From: Halobacterium hubeiense
GTDB taxonomy: Archaea; Halobacteriota; Halobacteria; Halobacteriales; Halobacteriaceae
Reading direction: 5' to 3'
DNA: 64,000 nt
Assembly: GCF_001488575.1 (NCBI RefSeq)
Contig: NZ_LN831302.1
Coordinates: forward strand, 1,674,001 to 1,738,000
The notes under the pieces are model-generated. The model worked only from the letters and a program-made list of their open reading frames with translations, was not told where the DNA came from and ran no database searches. The position numbers were made by a program, and so were the translations under genes. Below are positions 6,068-14,845 of the stretch, in pieces. How positions within the stretch are numbered: position 1 is the stretch's first letter; each line of letters starts with the position of its first letter.

Positions 6068-6176
6068 GTGCTCTTGGCCGAGCGTGTACCGCGCGCTGAC
6101 TCTGCCAGCGCGCAGCGTAAAAGGTCGAAATGTACGCCCGCGACACTACCGAGCGACAATCCACGAGTGGGCTCGG
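6068..6176. repeat. Boxed hairpin repeat, copy 1, with left 45-base direct repeat
   Basis: Box 1 (GTGCTCTTGGCCGAGC, 6068-6083) is followed by a perfect 8-bp hairpin (6091-6098 with 6106-6113) and box 2 starting AAAAGGTCG at 6119. The block 6132-6176 recurs at 13775-13819 with two mismatches in 45. Boxes 1 and 2 recur at 14016-14155 around different hairpins. It marks the left edge of a lower-G+C island. The rest of the stretch 5978-6202 shows no credible gene. Confidence 0.8.
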
Positions 6177-6202
6177 TGGCAGTGAATTCGGAGGTTCGAT
6201 GG

Positions 6203-6862
6203 TTAGTGTTCGATGGTCGCCACGGTGAACAGCGAGTCATCCGAGAGGACACTCTGGACACGTCCGTGCCACACGTCCGCGAACAGTTCGCGCTCGGCTT
6301 CGCTCGCGGTCCCCTCGATGATCTGTTGGAGGGTGCCGAGCGCCGGTCCGCCGTCCGGAACGTCGCCGACGTGGTAGACCACCTCGACGGTTTCGACAGT
6401 GTCGGTCCGTCGGAAGCGGAACGTCGGGGCAGCACTATCGGGGTCGAACGCGTCGAACGTCAGCGTGTTTCGGCGACCACCGTAGCCGCCGGCGAGTCCA
6501 CCGAAGCCGTCTGCCTGGGCCGCGCCGGTCACGTACGAGATGAGACGCCCCATGACCCCGTACGTGGCGTCGTCACGCGGTCCCGCAGCGAGGACCTCGA
6601 CCTCGCTCCGAACCGGGAGTTCGTCGGGATACAGCGCGTCGAGGCCGACCTGAGCGATGCGGTAGGCTCCCGACGCGGTCGGACACGAGTGTCCCGCCGC
6701 CTTCACCACGTCCTCGTAGGTGACGACGAACGGGTCGCCGGGGTCGAGGACGGCGAGTGCTTCCGCGACGGGGTCGCGGATTCGAATCGGTTCGGCGTCG
6801 TATTCGACGGCCCAGTTCTCCTCGGAGCGGGTCGCGTCGGCCGGAGTCGTGCTCTCTTCCAT
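6203..6862 (-). CDS. FmdE-like (GHxCP) protein
   Basis: The 219-residue protein contains FVVTYEDVVKAAGHSCP followed by an alanine-rich helix and PVRSEVEVLA. The GHxCP motif and the following helix resemble the FmdE/FwdE family, first found beside formylmethanofuran dehydrogenase but widespread as metal-binding single-domain proteins. The Cys and His are candidate metal ligands. It lies 40 bases downstream of the metal ATPase on the same strand, suggesting a role in metal handling; the substrate is not inferable. Haloarchaea do not make methane, so the original role does not apply. Confidence 0.5.
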   Translation of the reverse strand: MEESTTPADATRSEENWAVEYDAEPIRIRDPVAEALAVLDPGDPFVVTYEDVVKAAGHSCPTASGAYRIAQVGLDALYPDELPVRSEVEVLAAGPRDDATYGVMGRLISYVTGAAQADGFGGLAGGYGGRRNTLTFDAFDPDSAAPTFRFRRTDTVETVEVVYHVGDVPDGGPALGTLQQIIEGTASEAERELFADVWHGRVQSVLSDDSLFTVATIEH

Positions 6863-6902
6863 CGTGAGTTATGTGTAGTCGCTGGTTCGTGATTCGATGC
6901 TG

Positions 6903-8828
6903 TCAGTAGCGCAGCAGCCGCATCCCGTTGCCGATGACCGCGAGGACGCTGGCCTCGTGGACGAGCATCCCGAGCGCGAGCGTGACGTAGCTCGTCAGGA
7001 CCCCTGCCAGCAGGAGCGTCACCGTCAGCACCGCGAGGCCGACGTTCTCGAAGATGTTCCACCGGGTGGCCTTGCTGAGTTCGACGGCGTAGGGGATGCG
7101 GTCGAGGTCGTCCGCCATCAGCGCCATGTCCGCCGTCTCGATGGCGGTGTCGGTCCCGGCGGCGCCCATGGCGATGCCCACGTCGGCGGTCGCCAGCGAC
7201 GGCGCGTCGTTGATGCCGTCGCCGACCATCGCCACGACGCGGCCGTCCTCGCGGTACTCCTCGATGACCGCCTGCTTGTCCTCGGGGAGCAGTTCCGCGC
7301 GGTAGTCGTCGATGCCGACCGCCTCGGCCACCGCGGCCGCGACGCGCTCGTTGTCGCCGGTCAGCATCACCGTCTCGATACCGGCGTCCTGGATCTTCTG
7401 GACGACGCCGGGCGCCGCCTCGCGGAGTTCGTCGCGCATGGCGATGGCGCCGACGACGACGCCGTCACGGACGACGTGGACGACAGTCTCGCCGCGCTCC
7501 TCGCGCTCACGGACGTAGTCGCCGACTTCCCCGGGGACCTCGACGTCGCGCTCGTCGAGCAACGAGCGGTTCCCGACGACGATTTCGCGGCCGTCGTGGC
7601 GTGCGACGACACCTTTGCCGGCGACGACGTCGAAGCTCTCGGGGTCGGGGACCGAACGTGCGTCCGCGGGTGCTGATTCGGTGTCTGCCTGGACGGCTTC
7701 TGTCCCGCCATCGGTGACTTCGACCGGGCGGTCCTGGGCCGCTTCGAGGATGGCGTCACCGAGGTGGTGTTCGCTCTTCTTCTCGGCGATGGCCGCGATT
7801 TCCAGCACCTCGCCGGTTCCGGCGTCGAACCCCGCGGCGTCGGCCACAGTCGTTTCGCCCTTGGTGAGCGTGCCGGTCTTGTCGAAGGCGACGAGGTCGA
7901 TCTTGCCGGCCTGTTCGAGGTGCTCGCCGCCCTTCATGAGGACGCCCGAACGCGCTGCGTTGCCGATAGCCGAGACGATGCTGACCGGCGGCCCGATCAC
8001 CAGCGCGCCCGGACAGCCGATGACCAGCAGCGTCAGTGACAGAATCGCGTTCTGTGTGACTGCGTAGGCGCCGACAGCCAGCGCGAGCACACCGGGCGTG
8101 TAGTACTTCGCGAAGCGGTCGATCAGGTTCTCGGTCGGCGACTGGGCCTCCTGTGCCTCCTCGACCCGCCGGATGATCCGCTGGAGCGTGGTGTCGGTGC
8201 CGGAGCCGGTCGTCTCGACCTCCAGCGAGCCCTCCTGATTGATCGTCCCGGCGTAGACCTCGTCGCCGTCGGCCTTGTGGACGGGCGCGCTCTCCCCGGT
8301 CACCGGCGCCTGGTTGACGGCGCTCTCGCCCTCGACGACGGCGCCGTCCACGGGAATCTTCTCGCCGGGTTTGACGACCACGACCTCGCCCGCTTCGACC
8401 TCGCGGGCCGGCACCTCTTGTTGCTCGCCGTCGCGGCGCACGGTGGCCGTGTCGGGCGTCATCTCCAGCAGTTCTTCGAGGGCGTTGCGCGTCTTCCGCA
8501 TCGTCCGGCCTTCGAGGTACGACCCCAGCGCGAACAGGAAGACCACCGCGGCGGCCTCCCAGTACGAGCCGATTACGATTGCGCCGACGGCCGCCAGCGT
8601 CACGAGCGTCTTGATGCCGAGGGTCCGGCTCTTAACCTCGTGGTAGGCGGTCTTGGCGATGTCGTAGCCGCCGACGACCGCCGCGAGGACGAGGATCGCG
8701 GTGCTCGCGGTATCGAGGGTGGTGAGGTAGCCGAGGGTCCAGCCGCCGGCGTACAGCAGGCCGCTCACCGCGACGACGATGGCCTTCCGACGTTTGCGGT
8801 AGTACTGTTTGATTGATTGCGTATCCAT
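6903..8828 (-). CDS. P1B-type heavy-metal translocating ATPase (atypical CPG motif)
   Basis: The 641-residue transporter has six to eight membrane helices, the phosphorylation motif DKTGTLTKGE (around 315), MLTGDN, and GDGINDAPSLA (around 537). It exports a soft or transition metal ion using ATP. Two signature positions are unusual: the transmembrane metal site reads CPG (about 271) instead of CPC, SPC or CPH, and the nucleotide-domain HP motif reads SEHHLG. There is no N-terminal HMA domain; that domain is the separate gene just upstream. The divergent ArsR-like regulator probably controls both. Zn, Cd, Pb or Cu are all possible substrates. Confidence 0.93.
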   Translation of the reverse strand: MDTQSIKQYYRKRRKAIVVAVSGLLYAGGWTLGYLTTLDTASTAILVLAAVVGGYDIAKTAYHEVKSRTLGIKTLVTLAAVGAIVIGSYWEAAAVVFLFALGSYLEGRTMRKTRNALEELLEMTPDTATVRRDGEQQEVPAREVEAGEVVVVKPGEKIPVDGAVVEGESAVNQAPVTGESAPVHKADGDEVYAGTINQEGSLEVETTGSGTDTTLQRIIRRVEEAQEAQSPTENLIDRFAKYYTPGVLALAVGAYAVTQNAILSLTLLVIGCPGALVIGPPVSIVSAIGNAARSGVLMKGGEHLEQAGKIDLVAFDKTGTLTKGETTVADAAGFDAGTGEVLEIAAIAEKKSEHHLGDAILEAAQDRPVEVTDGGTEAVQADTESAPADARSVPDPESFDVVAGKGVVARHDGREIVVGNRSLLDERDVEVPGEVGDYVREREERGETVVHVVRDGVVVGAIAMRDELREAAPGVVQKIQDAGIETVMLTGDNERVAAAVAEAVGIDDYRAELLPEDKQAVIEEYREDGRVVAMVGDGINDAPSLATADVGIAMGAAGTDTAIETADMALMADDLDRIPYAVELSKATRWNIFENVGLAVLTVTLLLAGVLTSYVTLALGMLVHEASVLAVIGNGMRLLRY

Positions 8829-8839
8829 GACCGTCCTCC

Positions 8840-9052
8840 TCAGGCGGGCTGGGGCGTGTAGCCCTGGTTCTCGATGGTCTGTTCGAACGTGGCGGGGTCG
8901 GCGACGCTGTCGTCGTAGTCGATTTCGACGCGACCAGTCGAGTAGTGGACCTCGACGTCTTCGACGCCCGCGACGTTCGAGAGGGCGCGTTCGACGGTGC
9001 TCGCACAGCTCGGGCAGTCGAAGTCCAGCACGCGGAGTTGGGTTTCGCTCAT
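8840..9052 (-). CDS. Free-standing heavy-metal-associated (HMA) domain protein
   Basis: The 70-residue protein has the ferredoxin-like HMA fold with the metal site DFDCPSCAS near the N-terminus and VEVHYSTGRVEIDYDD in the middle strands. It ends 11 bases before the ATPase start on the same strand, so the two are one operon. It likely acts as the metallochaperone that hands metal to the ATPase, replacing the N-terminal domains normally fused to such pumps. The start ATG at 9052 gives the family length; an upstream in-frame Met adds only six residues. Confidence 0.9.
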   Translation of the reverse strand: MSETQLRVLDFDCPSCASTVERALSNVAGVEDVEVHYSTGRVEIDYDDSVADPATFEQTIENQGYTPQPA

Positions 9053-9238
9053 TACAGTTCTACGTAGCACCCATACACACTAAAGTATTTTTTAGATGAT
9101 ATGTTTGAATGGCTATACGGGGTGTTTGAGCGGACAGACGAGTCGTCTAGCGCTTCCACTGAATCGGCCGAGGGGGTGTCAAACAGGGTCTATGCAACTG
9201 TCGTTACTACTTAACGTACACGCGGCGTCGGTTCACGC
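9053..9238. promoter_or_regulatory. Divergent promoter region of metal operon and its regulator
   Basis: This 186-base AT-rich gap separates the HMA/ATPase operon from the divergent winged-helix gene. A TTTTTTA-type element at about 9089-9096 suits the leftward operon, and TACTTAAC (about 9206-9213) lies about 26-33 bases before the rightward ATG. A perfect dyad GACGA-G-TCGTC at 9137-9147 sits between and is a candidate operator. Confidence 0.5.
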
Positions 9239-9763
9239 ATGAGCACGCCCGATACCGGGAACGACCTCGAAGACATCGCCGTTCGAGATACGCGGGTGTC
9301 GGATGCCATCGACGAACCGATGCGGGCGATGATTCTCGACATACTCGCCGACGAGACGCTGACAGCGAGCGACGTCCACGCCCGCCTCGCCGACAGGGGT
9401 ATCGACCGGACGGAGAACACGGTGCGCCACCACATCAACGAACTTCGGGACGCCGGACTCGTAGACGTCGTCCGCTTCGAGGAAGGCCGTGGCGGGACGA
9501 CGAAGTACTACGGGGCGAACACGACCGTCCTCTCGTACTCGCTTCCCGAGTCGGCCGACCCGGCTGTCGAGGAGATGGTTGATTCCGTCCAGCCGCAAGT
9601 CGAGGCTGCGCTCGCCACGCTGACTGACGAGTACGACGACGTGATCGACGACATCACGGCGGAGATGGAACCCTGCGAGCACTGCCGAACCCAGAAATAC
9701 GAGACGTACGTGATGTTGACAGTCCTCCGACGGGCCTTCGTTCGAGCACAGCAAGACGGATAG
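9239..9763 (+). CDS. ArsR-like winged-helix regulator
   Basis: The 174-residue protein has an N-terminal winged helix (about 25-95) with the pattern LTASDVHARLADRGIDRTENTVRHH (split here from a longer helix-turn-helix), a wing rich in Gly (EEGRGGTTKYY), and a C-terminal helical part ending in MEPCEHCRTQKYETY. The CEHC pair is a plausible metal sensor site. Divergent placement from the metal ATPase operon and a leaderless-type promoter suggest it represses that operon when metal is scarce. The metal specificity is unknown. Confidence 0.8.
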   Translation: MSTPDTGNDLEDIAVRDTRVSDAIDEPMRAMILDILADETLTASDVHARLADRGIDRTENTVRHHINELRDAGLVDVVRFEEGRGGTTKYYGANTTVLSYSLPESADPAVEEMVDSVQPQVEAALATLTDEYDDVIDDITAEMEPCEHCRTQKYETYVMLTVLRRAFVRAQQDG

Positions 9764-9924
9764 CCCAGTCCGACCGGCCTCGCGTCTCGGCCGCACAGAG
9801 ACCGTTCCTGCACCCCACCGCGTCGATTCGACGATTGGACGCCAATCGTTTTCCAGCATCCGCTCGTCGATTCAGCCATGTCGAGGACGATTCGGTCCCT
9901 GGCGACCACGATGTACCCCGAGAT

Positions 9925-10212
9925 ATGACAGTCGCGATGCTCCTCGAACAGTACGTCAGTCTGGGCATCTTTCTCATCGCGGGCGTGCTCAGCGGGCTGA
10001 GTTATCTGGCGTGGTATCGGGAACGGGACCGCCGAATGCGTGTCGTCACCGCCGGGTACGCGATGTTCGCCCTCTACGGGCTGGTCGTCTTCCTCGAATA
10101 CCCCCTGCTCCCGTATCTCGGCGCGAGAACCGTCGAACTGCTCGAACACGGGAGTGCACTCCTCGTCCTCGCGGGCCTGTTGACGTTCTTCGTCGCGCTG
10201 ACGAGAGACTGA
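9925..10212 (+). CDS. Small three-helix membrane protein
   Basis: Starting at MTVAMLLEQYVSLG, the 95-residue product has three hydrophobic helices (about 5-28, 42-62 and 72-92) joined by a basic loop WYRERDRRMR. A longer in-frame version from 9835 would add a polar stretch unlike a signal sequence, so the inner ATG is preferred. It ends three bases before a winged-helix gene, forming a two-gene unit. No family recognised; haloarchaea often pair such membrane proteins with wHTH regulators. Confidence 0.65.
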   Translation: MTVAMLLEQYVSLGIFLIAGVLSGLSYLAWYRERDRRMRVVTAGYAMFALYGLVVFLEYPLLPYLGARTVELLEHGSALLVLAGLLTFFVALTRD

Positions 10213-10215
10213 GCA

Positions 10216-10737
10216 ATGAACGAGGGAGACATCGAGGTGGAGTCTCGGCGAGCGATCTACCAGGAGATTGCCGACTCGCCCGGGATTCACTTCCGGGCGC
10301 TTCTGGACACGCTCCCGTACGCACAGGGGACGCTCCAGTACCACCTTCGCCAGCTCGCCGACGAGGACCTGATCGACGTCTCCGACGACGGCAAGTACAC
10401 GCGCTACTACCCTGCTGCGGACTTCGACGAGGCGGAGCAGACGGTGATGAACGCGCTACGCCGCGAGTACAGCCGCCGCATTCTCGCGCACCTGCTCGCG
10501 GACGGCCCGCTCTCGACGACCGACCTGAGCGACCGCCTCGACAAAGCCCAATCGACGGTCTCCTGGCATCTCTCGAAACTGGCCGACGCTGACCTCGTCA
10601 CCAAAGAACGGGACGGGCGACGCGTCGTCTACGACGTGGAGAACCCGGACCGCGTCAAGTATCTCTACACGATCCATCAGCAATCCTTCACCGACCGTGT
10701 CGTCGACCGGCTCCTCGGCCTCTGGGAGGGCTACTGA
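10216..10737 (+). CDS. Tandem winged-helix (ArsR/MarR-like) regulator
   Basis: The 173-residue protein contains two winged-helix domains. The first, about residues 5-70, has FRALLDTLPYAQGTLQYHLRQL and a wing DDGKYTRYYP. The second, about 80-150, has STTDLSDRLDKAQSTVSWHL and a wing RDGRRVVYD. The pair should bind DNA as a monomer or dimer. It shares a transcription unit with the three-helix membrane protein and is convergent, with a 7-base overlap, with the redox module, which could be its target. No ligand pocket is evident. Confidence 0.82.
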   Translation: MNEGDIEVESRRAIYQEIADSPGIHFRALLDTLPYAQGTLQYHLRQLADEDLIDVSDDGKYTRYYPAADFDEAEQTVMNALRREYSRRILAHLLADGPLSTTDLSDRLDKAQSTVSWHLSKLADADLVTKERDGRRVVYDVENPDRVKYLYTIHQQSFTDRVVDRLLGLWEGY

Positions 10738-11276
10738 CCAGCCGGCGCTACCAGCCCGTTCCCCCGGAGCACGAAGAGCCGCATCAGGAGCACGTACGCG
10801 AGAAACATCATCGAGGGACCGAGCAGCGGAACGACGAGGCCCGAGAGGTCAGTACCGATAGCGGCCGCGTGGATCGTCCCGAACGTGAAACCGCCGTAGG
10901 CGAAACTATGTACGACGCGGGGCCCCCACGGTCGGTCGAACCGCCCGGCGTCTGTGAACCCGAGTACGGCCACGACGAGCAGAAAGAGAGCGCCGACGCC
11001 GACCACGACGCCACCGAGGAAGTACGACGTCGAGTACGCCGGTGGGGGCGCCTGACCGGAAAGGACGAACCACGCGTCCAGGATTCCGAGGCCAGCGTGG
11101 AGGAGAGTGACGAGCGTCGCAAACACCGACACTTCGATGTGAACCCGACGGGCGGCCTCGTGGAGCGTGCCGAACGCCTCCGTGTTGTAGAAGATTCCTG
11201 TGAGGACCGACAGGTACAGCGCCGGGTAGGCGACGAGCGCCGCGCCCCGGTCCAAGAGCCAGACGAGTTGCGACAT
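10731..11276 (-). CDS. Ferric-reductase/cytochrome b-like transmembrane protein
   Basis: The 181-residue protein has five to six hydrophobic helices. Conserved-looking histidines sit in EAARRVHIEVSVFATLVTLL, in LLHAGLG, in VVHSFAYGG and in TIHAAAIG, spaced so that pairs could bind haem across the membrane as in ferric-reductase-like or b561-type domains. Its start overlaps the stop of the type-3-repeat gene (ATGA), and ApbE is upstream, so it is the last gene of a redox operon. Likely role: passing electrons across the membrane. Confidence 0.65.
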   Translation of the reverse strand: MSQLVWLLDRGAALVAYPALYLSVLTGIFYNTEAFGTLHEAARRVHIEVSVFATLVTLLHAGLGILDAWFVLSGQAPPPAYSTSYFLGGVVVGVGALFLLVVAVLGFTDAGRFDRPWGPRVVHSFAYGGFTFGTIHAAAIGTDLSGLVVPLLGPSMMFLAYVLLMRLFVLRGNGLVAPAGQ

Positions 11277-11563
11277 CACGAGGCCCCCGTCGTAGCGACC
11301 ACGTCTGGACACCCGTCCGCATCCTGAAATCCGTTCTCGGTTTCCGGCCGCGTCGGGCACCTGTCGGTCGAATCAGCGACGCCATCGCCGTCGTAGTCGT
11401 TCGGCGCCTGCCGTGTCGCCACCGGCTGATTGACTACCTCCGTCTGTTTCTCCTCAGTCGCATAAGTCGCCCGAACGTTGCTGACCTGCCAGAGAACCGG
11501 CGTTGCTGCGACCAGAAGTACGACCGCGGCGACGGAGATGCGTTGCTTACGTGTCCAGGACAT
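11276..11563 (-). CDS. Exported protein with thrombospondin type-3 calcium repeats
   Basis: The 95-residue product begins MSWTRKQRISVAAVVLLVAA, a positively charged start and one hydrophobic helix that would act as signal or anchor. The outer part carries two type-3 repeats, DYDGDGVADSTDRCP and ENGFQDADGCP, with the Asp pattern and Cys pair that bind calcium. It ends in VVATTGAS, which loosely resembles the ApbE flavinylation site. Its first 17 bases overlap the end of apbE and its stop overlaps the next start, so all three are translationally coupled. Confidence 0.7.
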   Translation of the reverse strand: MSWTRKQRISVAAVVLLVAATPVLWQVSNVRATYATEEKQTEVVNQPVATRQAPNDYDGDGVADSTDRCPTRPETENGFQDADGCPDVVATTGAS

Positions 11564-12416
11564 GAGTTGTGAAATTCTCGGTCGCGTGGAAGACACCATC
11601 GTGGATGATGAGCGCTTCCAGGCCGGGCCAGTCCGCCGCGAGTGACTCGGCGTCGGCGAGCGGGAGAGCCGCCAGCGTCGTCGCGAGCGCGTCCGCTTCC
11701 ATGCAGTCACGTCGAGCGACGACAGTTACTGACTCGTGTCGGGAGCCGAGGCGTTCTGTCGCCGGGTCGTAGATGTGGTCCGTTCCGCGACGTTCACGCT
11801 GATAGCCGCCCGAAGTAGCGACGTTCCACTCGGTGTCCAATACTTTCAGCGGGGTGTCGTCACCGTACGGACTCTCGATAGCGACTGGACCCATCGGGGG
11901 AGACATATCACCGCCGCCACTGACGAATCCACGGCGGCCGAATCCGTCGAGTGCGCCAGCAGCCTGATCCACGATGTAGCCCTTGGCGAGACCATTCAAG
12001 TCGAGCGGAACGGTTGTCCGCACGTGGGTGTCGTCGACGGTGACAGCACCAGTATCGAATGCCTCGGGAGGCGACGCCCGGTCACCACGCAGGAATGCTT
12101 TGAGGTCGTGTTCGACCCGTCCCTGATGGATGTCGAAGACGTGGTCGGTGCGCTCGTAGTATTCGAGGCCACGACGCACGAGCCGAGCGACGTGCTCGTT
12201 GTCGACCGCCCCATCGTCGTTGAGGTGACTCACGGCACTCGTCTCGTCGAACGCGTTCAGTTGCTCTTCGAGGGCTTCCGCGGTCCGTCGGGCCACAGAT
12301 GCTGTACGACCGGCTCGCAGCCCGCTCGCTCGAATGCGGAACTCCGTATCACAGCAGCGGAACTCCCGGACTTCCTCGCCGAATCGCTCGTCTCCCGACA
12401 CGAGATGGGGCTTCAT
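11547..12416 (-). CDS. apbE: FAD:protein FMN transferase (ApbE family)
   Basis: The 289-residue protein shows the ApbE core: LDLNGLAKGYIVDQA (about 139), SGGGD (about 165), ATSGGYQRE and HIYDP, and MEADALATTLAALPL near the C-terminus with the Mg-binding acidic residues. The enzyme moves FMN from FAD onto a Thr or Ser of a partner protein. No Tat, Sec or lipobox signal is visible at MKPHLVSGDERF, whereas most family members work outside the membrane; either the protein is cytosolic or the annotated start hides an unusual signal. Its operon partners are a candidate substrate and a membrane electron carrier. Confidence 0.93.
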   Translation of the reverse strand: MKPHLVSGDERFGEEVREFRCCDTEFRIRASGLRAGRTASVARRTAEALEEQLNAFDETSAVSHLNDDGAVDNEHVARLVRRGLEYYERTDHVFDIHQGRVEHDLKAFLRGDRASPPEAFDTGAVTVDDTHVRTTVPLDLNGLAKGYIVDQAAGALDGFGRRGFVSGGGDMSPPMGPVAIESPYGDDTPLKVLDTEWNVATSGGYQRERRGTDHIYDPATERLGSRHESVTVVARRDCMEADALATTLAALPLADAESLAADWPGLEALIIHDGVFHATENFTTHVLDT

Positions 12417-12422
12417 CGTGAT

Positions 12423-12767
12423 TTATTCCTCCCCCTCTTCAGCCGCTTCGGCCTCTTCGTGTTCCTCTTCCGCCTCTTCGTGTTCGTCGCCGCCTTCACC
12501 CTCTTCGTGTTCCGCTTCCTCGTGTTCGCCTTCTTCGTAGCCAGATTGGGTTTGGACAGCAGGGGTGAAGTTCTGGTTTGGAGCGGGGGCGTCACCGGCC
12601 AACTGCTGTGAGGTGGACGCATCCGCGTCGGAGACCGCGTTGCCCGTGTCTCCTGTAGTGGCGAATCCGAGACCGGGGAACGCGAGGCCGGCAGCGACGA
12701 CGGTCGTCAACAGCGCCCCCGCGAGTGTGAACGCGACGAGTCGATTGTTGGGGACTGGAATGTTCAT
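12423..12767 (-). CDS. Membrane-anchored Glu/His-rich protein
   Basis: From ATG 12767 the 114-residue product starts MNIPVPNNRLVAFTLAG, a single hydrophobic helix, followed by a spacer and a tail of about 45 residues that is almost only Glu with regularly placed His and Ala (EEGEHEEAEHEEGEGG, EHEEAEEEHEEAEAAEEGEE). The tail could bind divalent metal or a cationic partner. The frame is open up to an ATG at 12929, giving a Cys-containing acidic N-terminus; the inner start is preferred because it places the helix at the N-terminus. It precedes apbE by six bases, so it is the first gene of that operon. Confidence 0.6.
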   Translation of the reverse strand: MNIPVPNNRLVAFTLAGALLTTVVAAGLAFPGLGFATTGDTGNAVSDADASTSQQLAGDAPAPNQNFTPAVQTQSGYEEGEHEEAEHEEGEGGDEHEEAEEEHEEAEAAEEGEE

Positions 12768-13053
12768 TGGTGTTGCTGGGGCGTCCGTGTCGTAGCGGGG
12801 GTGCTCGTCTTCGCTGTCCGTGCCTTCGCCGGGGCCGCCATCGGTCCCGTCCTCAGTTGGAGTCGCGGGATTATCTTCGTCATTACAACCGAACCCACCT
12901 CCTGACAGAGAAAGTGTATTCGCGTCCAACTATCGAATTGTCGTACAATCGTCGAATCCCCGGCCACCGCTCGCAAGCACCAGCACGACATCGAGAGTCG
13001 GGCAATTGCTAGAGGATGCGCTTCTCCGGACTTGTCGTTCTCCTCTGAGCGAG
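12768..13053. other. Intergenic stretch with alternative upstream start
   Basis: These 286 bases hold the possible N-terminal extension of the Glu/His-rich protein (to 12929) and then an AT-richer part that should contain the promoter of the apbE operon. No other credible gene was seen. Confidence 0.4.
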
Positions 13054-13665
13054 TCAGGTGACAGCCCCCCGAATCCGGGAGCCGCCGTAGAAGCCGAGCA
13101 GCACGGCTACTCGACTTCCCACGTACGCGAGTGCATAAATCATCCCAGCCACCGGATGATAGACTAACAGCACGAAGTACGTGCCAAACGTCAGAAACGG
13201 GCCGAGGGTACGGGCCGCCGGAGTGTCGTTCAGCCGCCTCACTGAGTCGAACCGCTGGATGAAATACGGAAGCCCCGCACCGAGCGCTACGGCTGGGACA
13301 ACACCACTGAATGCGAGGAACGCCGACTGCGGATCTGCGTTCACAGCGGCGTCAGTCACGATTCCGAGCGCGGAAGCGAACCAGAGGAGCAGAACGAATT
13401 GAACGACAGCCATCCCGACCTGAACGAAACCAAGAGCGAACGTCCGGCTCGTCGTGAAATCTACGTCGTCATCTACGAGCCGTGTGTACGCCTCCCAGTA
13501 TCGACCGAATCCCCAGTACATCGCCGCTCCAGCGAGCGTCGTTAACACTCCGAGACTGACCCAGACGATGTCCCCTTGCGCTACGCTGAATCCCGCAAGA
13601 ACAAGCCCGAGCGGAACGAGTGCGGCGGAAAGCATCTGAAGAATTCGCTGTCTGTTCACGGACAT
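13054..13665 (-). CDS. Multi-pass membrane protein of unknown family
   Basis: From MSVNRQRIL the 203-residue product has five to six hydrophobic helices (about 10-28, 33-52, 82-105, 115-135, 150-172 and 175-195). The G+C of the gene is clearly lower than that of flanking core genes, in line with its place at the right end of the island. No motif identifies a function. An in-frame ATG at 13692 would add nine residues; the inner one gives a better membrane-protein start. Confidence 0.65.
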   Translation of the reverse strand: MSVNRQRILQMLSAALVPLGLVLAGFSVAQGDIVWVSLGVLTTLAGAAMYWGFGRYWEAYTRLVDDDVDFTTSRTFALGFVQVGMAVVQFVLLLWFASALGIVTDAAVNADPQSAFLAFSGVVPAVALGAGLPYFIQRFDSVRRLNDTPAARTLGPFLTFGTYFVLLVYHPVAGMIYALAYVGSRVAVLLGFYGGSRIRGAVT

Positions 13666-13774
13666 GGAGTCGAACGTTCGGTAAAAATACATTGGGGGAT
13701 CGTGGCTGAGCTCGGTCAGCGACGAGATGTCAGCGAATCTGGATGGAAATACGGCGGTTACGCAGTCCAGAAAC

Positions 13775-13819
13775 GTACGCCTGCGACACTACCGGGCGAC
13801 AATCCACGAGTGGGCTCGG
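13775..13819 (+). repeat. Right copy of the 45-base island-flanking direct repeat
   Basis: It matches 6132-6176 in the same orientation at 43 of 45 positions, the differences being at the eighth and twentieth bases. The 7.6 kb between the copies has distinct composition. No integrase or transposase lies between them. Confidence 0.8.
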
Positions 13820-13952
13820 CGAAACTGAAATCGACAGTTGTTCGGCGACCGAGCGGTCCGAAGGACCCGGTAGGTCGCCGATTCACTCGCGCGAGCGGAT
13901 GTGAGCGCGAGGCCGACGAGCGACTAAGCGTCGAAGGCGCGCTGGAGTGGTT

Positions 13953-14104
13953 CGAAAGGCGCGAAGCGCCTTTCGTCATCACGAAAGACGGCTCTGCCGT
14001 CTTTCGAACGATGAGGAGTGCTTTTGGCCGAGCTTTTGCAAGCGAGCAACGCGGGACGCTTAGCGTCCCGCGGGCGGTACGGGCGACTCGCGGGTCGCCC
14101 GTAC
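13953..14104. repeat. Cluster of four perfect hairpins
   Basis: Perfect inverted repeats: 13953-13962 with 13966-13975 (10 bp, GAA loop); 13982-13992 with 13996-14006 (11 bp, TCT loop); 14050-14059 with 14063-14072 (10 bp, TTA loop); 14077-14087 with 14094-14104 (11 bp). The first two both begin CGAAAG. They resemble mobile palindromic elements and lie next to and inside the boxed repeat copy 3. A minus-strand frame stays open through them, but its composition is not protein-like. Confidence 0.85.
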
Positions 14105-14155
14105 AACGAAGCGAGCGCTGCAAAAGGTCGTAATGTACGCCCGCGACACTAACGA
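14016..14155. repeat. Boxed hairpin repeat, copy 3
   Basis: GTGCTTTTGGCCGAGC (14018-14033) and CAAAAGGTCGTAATGTACGC (from 14121) match the two boxes of copy 1 but enclose different, longer hairpins. CTTTTGCA at 14033-14040 is complementary to TGCAAAAG at 14119-14126, so the boxes can close a larger helix around the inserted hairpins. Confidence 0.75.
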
Positions 14156-14417
14156 CCGACCTCATCCGTGGGCGGCGTGCCCCGTCGGCCGGGAAACCCT
14201 CGTGGCGGGCGGGGGCTTCCATAGGAAGCCCCAGATGCCGAGCCGGTGTGAACCGGCGAGGCGGGAGTGCTCGAAGAGCACTCCGAATGCCGAAGCGGCG
14301 ATAGCCGCTGAGGCGGGCGGTTCGGTAGAACCACCAGATGCCGAGGCGGTGAGACCGCCTCGCTGCGTGGTGTGTGACGCCACCAGCCGGGCAGCCGTCG
14401 GGCTGCCGGAGTGTCGC
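14143..14417 (+). ncRNA. Candidate structured RNA: tandem 52-base double-hairpin units
   Basis: Three head-to-tail units start at 14212, 14264 and 14316, exactly 52 bases apart. Each has a strong hairpin A (9, 9 and 8 bp, loops of 3-4), the linker AGATGCCGA or GAATGCCGA, and hairpin B (6 bp). In units 1 and 2 hairpin B is enclosed by GCC/GGC with symmetrical GA/GA, as expected for tandem sheared G-A pairs. Linkers are nearly constant while stem sequences differ but stay paired. A last hairpin (14390-14396 with 14401-14407) is followed at once by AGTGTCGC (14410-14417), complementary to GCGACACT at 14143-14150, which could close the whole structure. The GA pairs favour the plus strand. No known RNA family was recognised. 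Confidence 0.65.
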
Positions 14418-14516
14418 ACGCCGGGGTTCTCCGAGCGGTCATCGCGTCCGCGTGGACAGACTCGGCCGGGGACAAACGGCGCGCGTAGCGTCGTAGGCGG
14501 CCGCGTAGAAAGAGGG

Positions 14517-14744
14517 TTACGCCTCTGCGCGCTCGGTGAGCGCGTACACCTGTTCTTTGGTCTCGCAGAGCCCGCAGACGCACTCGGCGAGGCCGGCGTC
14601 GTCGAGTTCCGCGAGCGCGTCCGCGGCGTCGGCTTCCGAGAGGCGCGCCTCCTCGGCCACTTCGGCCGGGGAGAGCGGACCGCAGTTGTCGAGCACGACG
14701 CGCGCGAGTTTCGCCGCGCACGACAGTGCTTCGGACTCACTCAT
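14517..14744 (-). CDS. Small winged-helix-like protein with CxCxxC
   Basis: The 75-residue product from MSESEALSCAAKL is mostly helical: LSPAEVAEEARLSEADAADALAELDDAGL reads as a compact helix-turn-helix, split here across a turn, followed by ECVCGLCETKEQVYALTERAEA. The three cysteines CVCGLC could bind zinc at the wing. It may be a DNA-binding regulator. It is divergent from the hydroxyacid dehydrogenase gene, and its 3' end faces the candidate RNA. Confidence 0.65.
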   Translation of the reverse strand: MSESEALSCAAKLARVVLDNCGPLSPAEVAEEARLSEADAADALAELDDAGLAECVCGLCETKEQVYALTERAEA

Positions 14745-14845
14745 CACTTCGGCGTAATCGACACGCGTCAAAAACCCTTCGTAAAGCGGCGAGTAGGGCG
14801 CCTGTCGCGCAACGCTTACTGTCGTCGGCGCCGACCGGCGAGGCG

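Follow-up and report, generated by a model that had tools for sequence, protein, structure and literature searches.

A tandem double-hairpin array in Halobacterium hubeiense is probably the spacer of a minus-strand H/ACA guide RNA whose gene end is an integration hotspot

What is encoded by a short tandem array of hairpins in the genome of Halobacterium hubeiense, and on which strand, is the question raised by this locus. The array lies within a stretch of 64,000 nucleotides (assembly GCF_001488575.1, contig NZ_LN831302.1, positions 1,674,001 to 1,738,000 of the forward strand) that is called the window here, with coordinates counted from its first letter. An initial annotation had presented the array as an undescribed, stand-alone RNA of the plus strand. 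The repeat design that it reported holds: hairpins start exactly at 14212, 14264 and 14316, a step of 52 bases, and the almost fixed linkers AGATGCCGA/GAATGCCGA and GAGGCG give a pattern with 2 exact matches and 17 at two mismatches or fewer, against 4.8 expected. The GA/GA pair within GCC/GGC is likewise present in units 1 and 2. These double-hairpin units are real and above chance, but they are part of a spacer and not an independent plus-strand RNA. We conclude, with a probability of about 0.9, that the array forms the spacer in a known type of two-hairpin H/ACA guide sRNA on the minus strand, in which hairpin HP1 guides at U2617 and hairpin HP2 at U1954 of 23S rRNA (Table 1).

Table 1. Features of the guide RNA locus and its attachment sites, in window coordinates
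Feature	Position	Strand	Details
TATA-like promoter element	14506..14514	-	TCTTTCTA; 22-29 nt upstream of the RNA
Putative -10 'TA'	14494-14495	-	minus-strand promoter
Two-hairpin H/ACA guide sRNA gene	14131..14485	-	HP1 - spacer - HP2; predicted ends
HP1 guide hairpin	14412..14485	-	alignment and pair counts
HP1 lower stem	14477-14484 / 14416-14423	-	
HP1 5' guide	14471-14473	-	GUC
HP1 3' guide	14424-14428	-	AACCC
HP1 K-turn	14462-14465 with 14439-14443	-	CCGA with GAUGA
HP1 ACA box	14412-14414	-	
Variable spacer	about 14212..14411	-	holds the double-hairpin unit array
Repeat unit 1	14212..14263		hairpin 14212-14232, then GCC-GA-hairpin-GA-GGC; exact pattern match 14235-14263
Repeat unit 2	14264..14315		exact pattern match 14287-14315
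Repeat unit 3	14316..14363		degenerate; first stem C.A on plus, G.U on minus
HP2 guide hairpin	14131..14211	-	alignment, pair counts and covariance model
HP2 lower stem	14205-14211 / 14138-14144	-	
HP2 5' guide	14196-14201	-	GAGGGU
HP2 3' guide	14148-14151	-	UAGU
HP2 K-turn	14185-14188 with 14162-14166	-	CCGA with GAUGA
HP2 ACA box	14134-14136	-	
Attachment-site core	14135..14154		CGCCCGCGACACTAAC; the RNA gene 3' end, duplicated on this side only
Duplicated attachment core	13775..13794		left end of a 360-bp non-coding cassette
Duplicated attachment core	6132..6151		left end of a 7.6-kb cassette

That the locus is a structured non-coding RNA with covarying stems had been recognized correctly. 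Folding of 14100-14516 on the plus strand is better than chance (z -6.5 against shuffled sequences), with values of -5.9 for the minus strand of the same segment and -5.4 for the minus-strand gene alone. The stretch is present in 48 of the 59 relatives searched, about once per genome, and across these relatives only two blocks, 14132-14214 and 14409-14476, are conserved beyond the genus. Pattern scanning of named genomes, followed by extraction, gave 132 non-identical homologues from genera that include Halobacterium, Haloferax, Haloarcula, Natrinema, Halorubrum and Haloquadratum; that of Halobacterium salinarum is L015/L078. On the minus strand, each of the two blocks resolves into a lower stem, a pocket, an upper stem, a K-turn and an ACA box. 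Pairing is kept at 96.6% in HP2, where 9 pairs have changed on both sides, and at 94.1% in HP1, with 11 such pairs, levels that none of 500 shuffles reached for either hairpin; the alignments comprised 36 and 28 sequences and were controlled by column shuffling and by sliding. In the window an ACA box follows both lower stems on the 3' side (...GUGC-G-ACA for HP1, ...GGGCG-U-ACA for HP2), its middle position being variable among relatives, some of which carry AUA, and the predicted K-turn motif of CCGA and GAUGA is near-invariant in both hairpins. The genome also holds a gene for Cbf5 (TIGR00425 above cut-off, 284 bits).

The stretch had been said to belong to no RNA family, and this stands as far as Rfam is concerned, where no match reached the gathering score or a significant E-value; the flanking hairpins, on the other hand, are those of a published H/ACA sRNA. 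The gene call combines the conserved blocks, the promoter, the ACA boxes and the guide pairing with the description by Grosjean 2008 (PMC2584109). RNase P RNA and SRP RNA are out as identities, both being located elsewhere in the genome. The conserved blocks had also hinted at a long-range AACCC/GGGTT pseudoknot, which was set aside because both segments are guide sequences for 23S rRNA. The eight-base helix between 14143-14150 and 14410-14417, proposed to enclose the whole array, is fully paired in 4 of 132 homologues, a rate similar to that obtained with random partners (55 of 2000), and is attributed to chance.

Transcription had been placed on the plus strand, and here the conserved signals of a promoter and the wobble pairs of the core both point to the minus strand instead. 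An AT peak and conserved bases lie at the same distance from the gene in 124 homologues, on the side of a minus-strand promoter; the AT-rich box 22-29 nt out and a TA at -10 are placed as in a haloarchaeal promoter. At the plus-strand 5' end no promoter-like conservation was seen upstream in the homologues compared. Wobble cells in the core stems favour minus over plus by 126 to 29. Because promoter conservation and core wobbles agree, the RNA is taken to run from about 14485 to 14131. The rarity of wobbles had raised the suspicion that the core was purely a DNA element, which was given up after this core test and the promoter finding. Within the spacer stems the ratio of wobbles is 42 minus to 26 plus (p 0.07), a test that we judge weak because the same stem finder failed to tell the strand of SRP RNA used as a control. 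The statement that every stem in the array still pairs fails on the plus strand, where the stem at 14316 contains a C.A mismatch that becomes G.U on the minus strand. In the sequence and its minus-strand fold, the second hairpin of this third unit has merged with the GA/TC on either side to form a single longer stem. A small protein gene (14517-14771, minus strand) ends about 30 bp from the start of the RNA and is found at this position in most genomes of the genus and, elsewhere in the family, in some others; its product shows a CxCxxC motif and a weak winged-helix-like match (AlkZ-like, below cut-off).

A simple scan of the guide pockets against the genome's own 23S rRNA returned, as the best site for HP2, U1954 in helix 69, within GGGUAACUA[U]GACCCUC, with 4+6 bp and 15 nt to the ACA box. 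For HP1, the site U2617, within CUGGGUU[U]AGACC (5+3 bp, 14 nt to ACA), is joint best, tied with one other site, and the 5' guide contributes a pairing of 3 bp only. Both hairpins show bipartite complementarity to an rRNA uridine, at a distance from the ACA box within the 14-16 nt expected of such guides. U1954 and U2617 are the equivalents of Psi1958 and Psi2621, four positions off the Haloarcula numbering used by Grosjean et al. In the literature a guide of the HP2 type also serves Psi1956 (PMC2584109), and the simple 23S scan did not recover this second register. We infer that the gene is transcribed, and its targets pseudouridylated, in H. hubeiense.

A covariance model of HP2 finds a match in 239 of 242 Halobacteria genomes, nearly always a single one, and in 33 genomes outside the class but within the phylum Halobacteriota. 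In most of the 16 non-halobacterial loci that were read HP1 stands immediately before HP2, which makes the long spacer a trait of the Halobacteria. Across the 132 homologues, HP1 and HP2 lie on one strand with a spacer of 0-257 nt between them (median 47). Second copies of the gene or of HP2 occur at L130 and L133 (Haloquadratum walsbyi J07HQW1), L108, G219 and G249, and the gene is absent from GenBank phages.

Spacers of at least 40 nt fold better than their shuffles (mean z -3.0), and units of like design with differing stems are found in several families, with examples from Halobacterium, Haloarcula, Halorhabdus, Halosimplex, Halapricum and further haloarchaea, the number of units varying widely between species. 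The GA/GA motif, which the initial annotation had singled out as distinctive of the plus strand, proved to be so throughout the class: as a 2x2 loop it occurs 35 times on plus (25 loci) and never on minus, while any other 2x2 loop occurs at most once and the background holds 3 cases in 1.48 million strand-bases. Its outer stems are GCC/GGC, GGC/GCC, GAC/GTC, CGC/GCG, CAC/GTG and GCT/AGC, and in the guide RNA strand the motif reads UC/UC. Among 69 distinct hairpins with four-nucleotide loops, 39 have a GNNA loop on plus and 7 on minus, compared with about 4% in the surroundings. These plus-strand loops show no purine preference at position 3, unlike GNRA loops of RNA, and in this they resemble stable DNA hairpin loops as reported from Nakano 2002 in PMC8373063. 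Position 2 is T in 21 of the 39, so the RNA strand often reads UNAC, a loop that can mimic GNRA (PMC12550061). From sequence, the GA/GA and GNNA pattern appears better read on the plus strand, and it would fit sheared G.A pairing in the strand complementary to the guide RNA.

The final 19-20 nt of the gene recur, in unchanged orientation, at 6132 and 13775 of the window, and the larger of the two cassettes so delimited carries a metal P-type ATPase, an HMA protein, ArsR-like regulators and ApbE. At homologous loci the left flank of the gene is different almost everywhere and the right flank is conserved, with recurrent families of FAD-dependent oxidoreductase-like protein, 2-hydroxyacid dehydrogenase and aspartate-semialdehyde dehydrogenase. 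Over the 132 loci, 29 extra core copies lie within 4 kb on the 3' side, all in the same orientation; none is in the opposite orientation or on the 5' side. The RNA 3' end is a one-sided integration hotspot for cassette arrays, including that at 6132-14135 in the window, with others at L050-L062, L109, L146, L161 and further loci. At its start each cassette carries a copy of the final 20 nt of the RNA and the CTACTAGTAG palindrome, and the arrays keep one orientation. The site reads CGCCCGG-AACACTA-CCGGGCG followed by CTACTAGTAG; with its inverted 7-bp arms around a 7-bp centre it looks like the core of a tyrosine-recombinase site. Cargo is often of the toxin-antitoxin kind (HicA, DUF3368 and Fic modules, and a PemK-like module called by eye, without a Pfam match), and no intI was seen in the cassette proteins scanned, a subset of all.

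One IMG/VR contig (L197, 88.6 kb) starts within the guide RNA gene, close to HP2; at 1-1901, directly beside the RNA 3' end, it has a phage-integrase gene and a small coiled-coil or wHTH-like gene, which suggests a provirus inserted at the guide RNA gene. This integrase has no relatives in the 59 genomes, no integrase was found for the small cassettes, and the exact short-site pattern has no occurrence in IMG/VR. Just outside the attachment core, the ends of non-coding cassettes, CTTTTGGYCGAGCTTTTGC...GCAAAAGGTCGAAAT, recur as an inverted repeat beside many core copies (window 13930-14133; L005, L012, L016 and L039). Far from the guide RNA, contig 1 of genome G009 has two same-orientation attachment-like sites at 277736 and 285118 (L065) with a toxin-antitoxin-like pair between them, possibly a secondary insertion site.

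If the minus-strand guide RNA is taken as the product, its transcript would start near 14485 and HP1 would fold first as the guide for 23S U2617, to be followed by about 200 nt of tandem hairpins and, at the end, by HP2 as the guide for U1954. From the H/ACA literature on other archaea, L7Ae would be expected on the K-turn of each guide hairpin and Cbf5-Nop10-Gar1 on the pocket and the ACA box. Copies of the spacer unit would be gained and lost, and every unit would have to stay folded, since otherwise it would invade the guide hairpins. The most likely role of the spacer, to which we attach moderate confidence, would be that of a self-folded, compact linker holding two RNPs apart on one RNA. 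It is also conceivable, though we consider it unlikely, that the hairpins are shaped at the level of DNA, with the single-stranded plus (template) strand folding and the RNA merely tolerating the result; tandem sheared G.A pairs and d(cGNNAg) loops would then drive gain and loss of units and the correction of stems by slippage or template switching. Both plus-strand motif biases speak for this, as do the DNA-like freedom at position 3 of the GNNA loops and the wide variation in unit number, whereas the frequent T at position 2, which yields the GNRA mimic UNAC in RNA, and the lean of spacer wobbles towards minus, weak test as it is, pull the other way. No DNA process is known at this site, and this also counts against it.

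The plus strand as the source of an independent tandem-hairpin RNA has the same sheared G.A logic and the plus-strand fold in its favour, but it is highly improbable given core wobbles that favour minus, an enclosing helix that is not conserved, GNNA loops lacking the purine bias of GNRA, and flanking hairpins that are H/ACA guides on the opposite strand; on the plus side, moreover, promoter-like conservation is absent and the sequence differs with each inserted cassette. That the entire element is a DNA recombination site resembling attI, and not an RNA gene, is extremely improbable. Directional cassette arrays do stop exactly at its left end, and its left flank is hypervariable where the right one is conserved, but the guide pockets fit two conserved sites of 23S rRNA with the proper spacing to the ACA boxes, a minus-strand promoter is present, the element occurs in nearly all genomes, most of them without detected cassettes, and its homologues outside the class lack the spacer. 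A published transcriptome of Haloquadratum identified no H/ACA RNAs, which we counted against the guide RNA that we nevertheless prefer, along with the 3-bp 5' guide and the tied 23S site of HP1, the second register of HP2 that the scan did not recover, and the plus-strand reading of the spacer motifs.

What had seemed a new RNA thus becomes a known guide RNA encoded by the opposite strand, and two things about that guide RNA appear to be new. One is a class-specific spacer built of repeats, with a strict motif and a strand logic opposite to the transcript, which makes it directly testable; were the spacer shaped as DNA, housekeeping guide RNAs throughout the Halobacteria would carry an insert that shapes itself. 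The other is that mobile gene cassettes insert at the gene's end. The 3' end serves haloarchaeal cassettes, many of which carry toxin-antitoxin modules, as a general point of entry and gives a concrete place to seek the recombinase.

Several known systems invite comparison. Integrative elements at the 3' ends of tRNA genes (PMC8371274) likewise duplicate a core at the end of an intact RNA gene, and here too a provirus-like contig has a phage integrase at the junction; what differs is that an H/ACA sRNA gene serves as the target and that the inserts form arrays of small cassettes in one orientation. Targets in sRNA, snoRNA or other non-coding RNA genes go unmentioned in the review of archaeal tyrosine recombinases (PMC8371274). 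Integrons, archaeal ones included, share same-orientation arrays rich in toxin-antitoxin genes and anchored at one site (Ghaly 2022, PMC9668308), in a paper that does not mention Halobacteria. They differ in that the sites here are short copies of the end of an RNA gene, with no intI seen in the proteins scanned.

The haloarchaeal HP1/HP2 sRNA goes by the name sR-h45. Its hairpins have been described as "separated by a long spacer" (Grosjean 2008, PMC2584109); Hvo1 and Hvo2 are the corresponding guides of Haloferax volcanii, and Halobacterium salinarum is listed among the species with HP1/HP2 guides (PMC4652768). The thermococcal Pf7/Pab40 and Archaeoglobus Afu-4 H/ACA sRNAs are homologous guides for the pseudouridine of H69 and have an HP1-like hairpin beside HP2 (PMC2584109), as do the non-halobacterial relatives found here, but their hairpins are adjacent, without a repeat spacer. 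The texts consulted on the HP1/HP2 sRNA, the sequence supplement of Grosjean 2008 aside, contain no description of tandem double-hairpin units in the spacer, nor of their G.A signature on the opposite strand. The H. hubeiense gene agrees with the haloarchaeal HP1/HP2 sRNA in the order HP1-HP2, in the long spacer and in targets equivalent to Psi2621 and Psi1956/1958, and differs in a spacer that consists of nearly 200 nt of tandem double-hairpin units.
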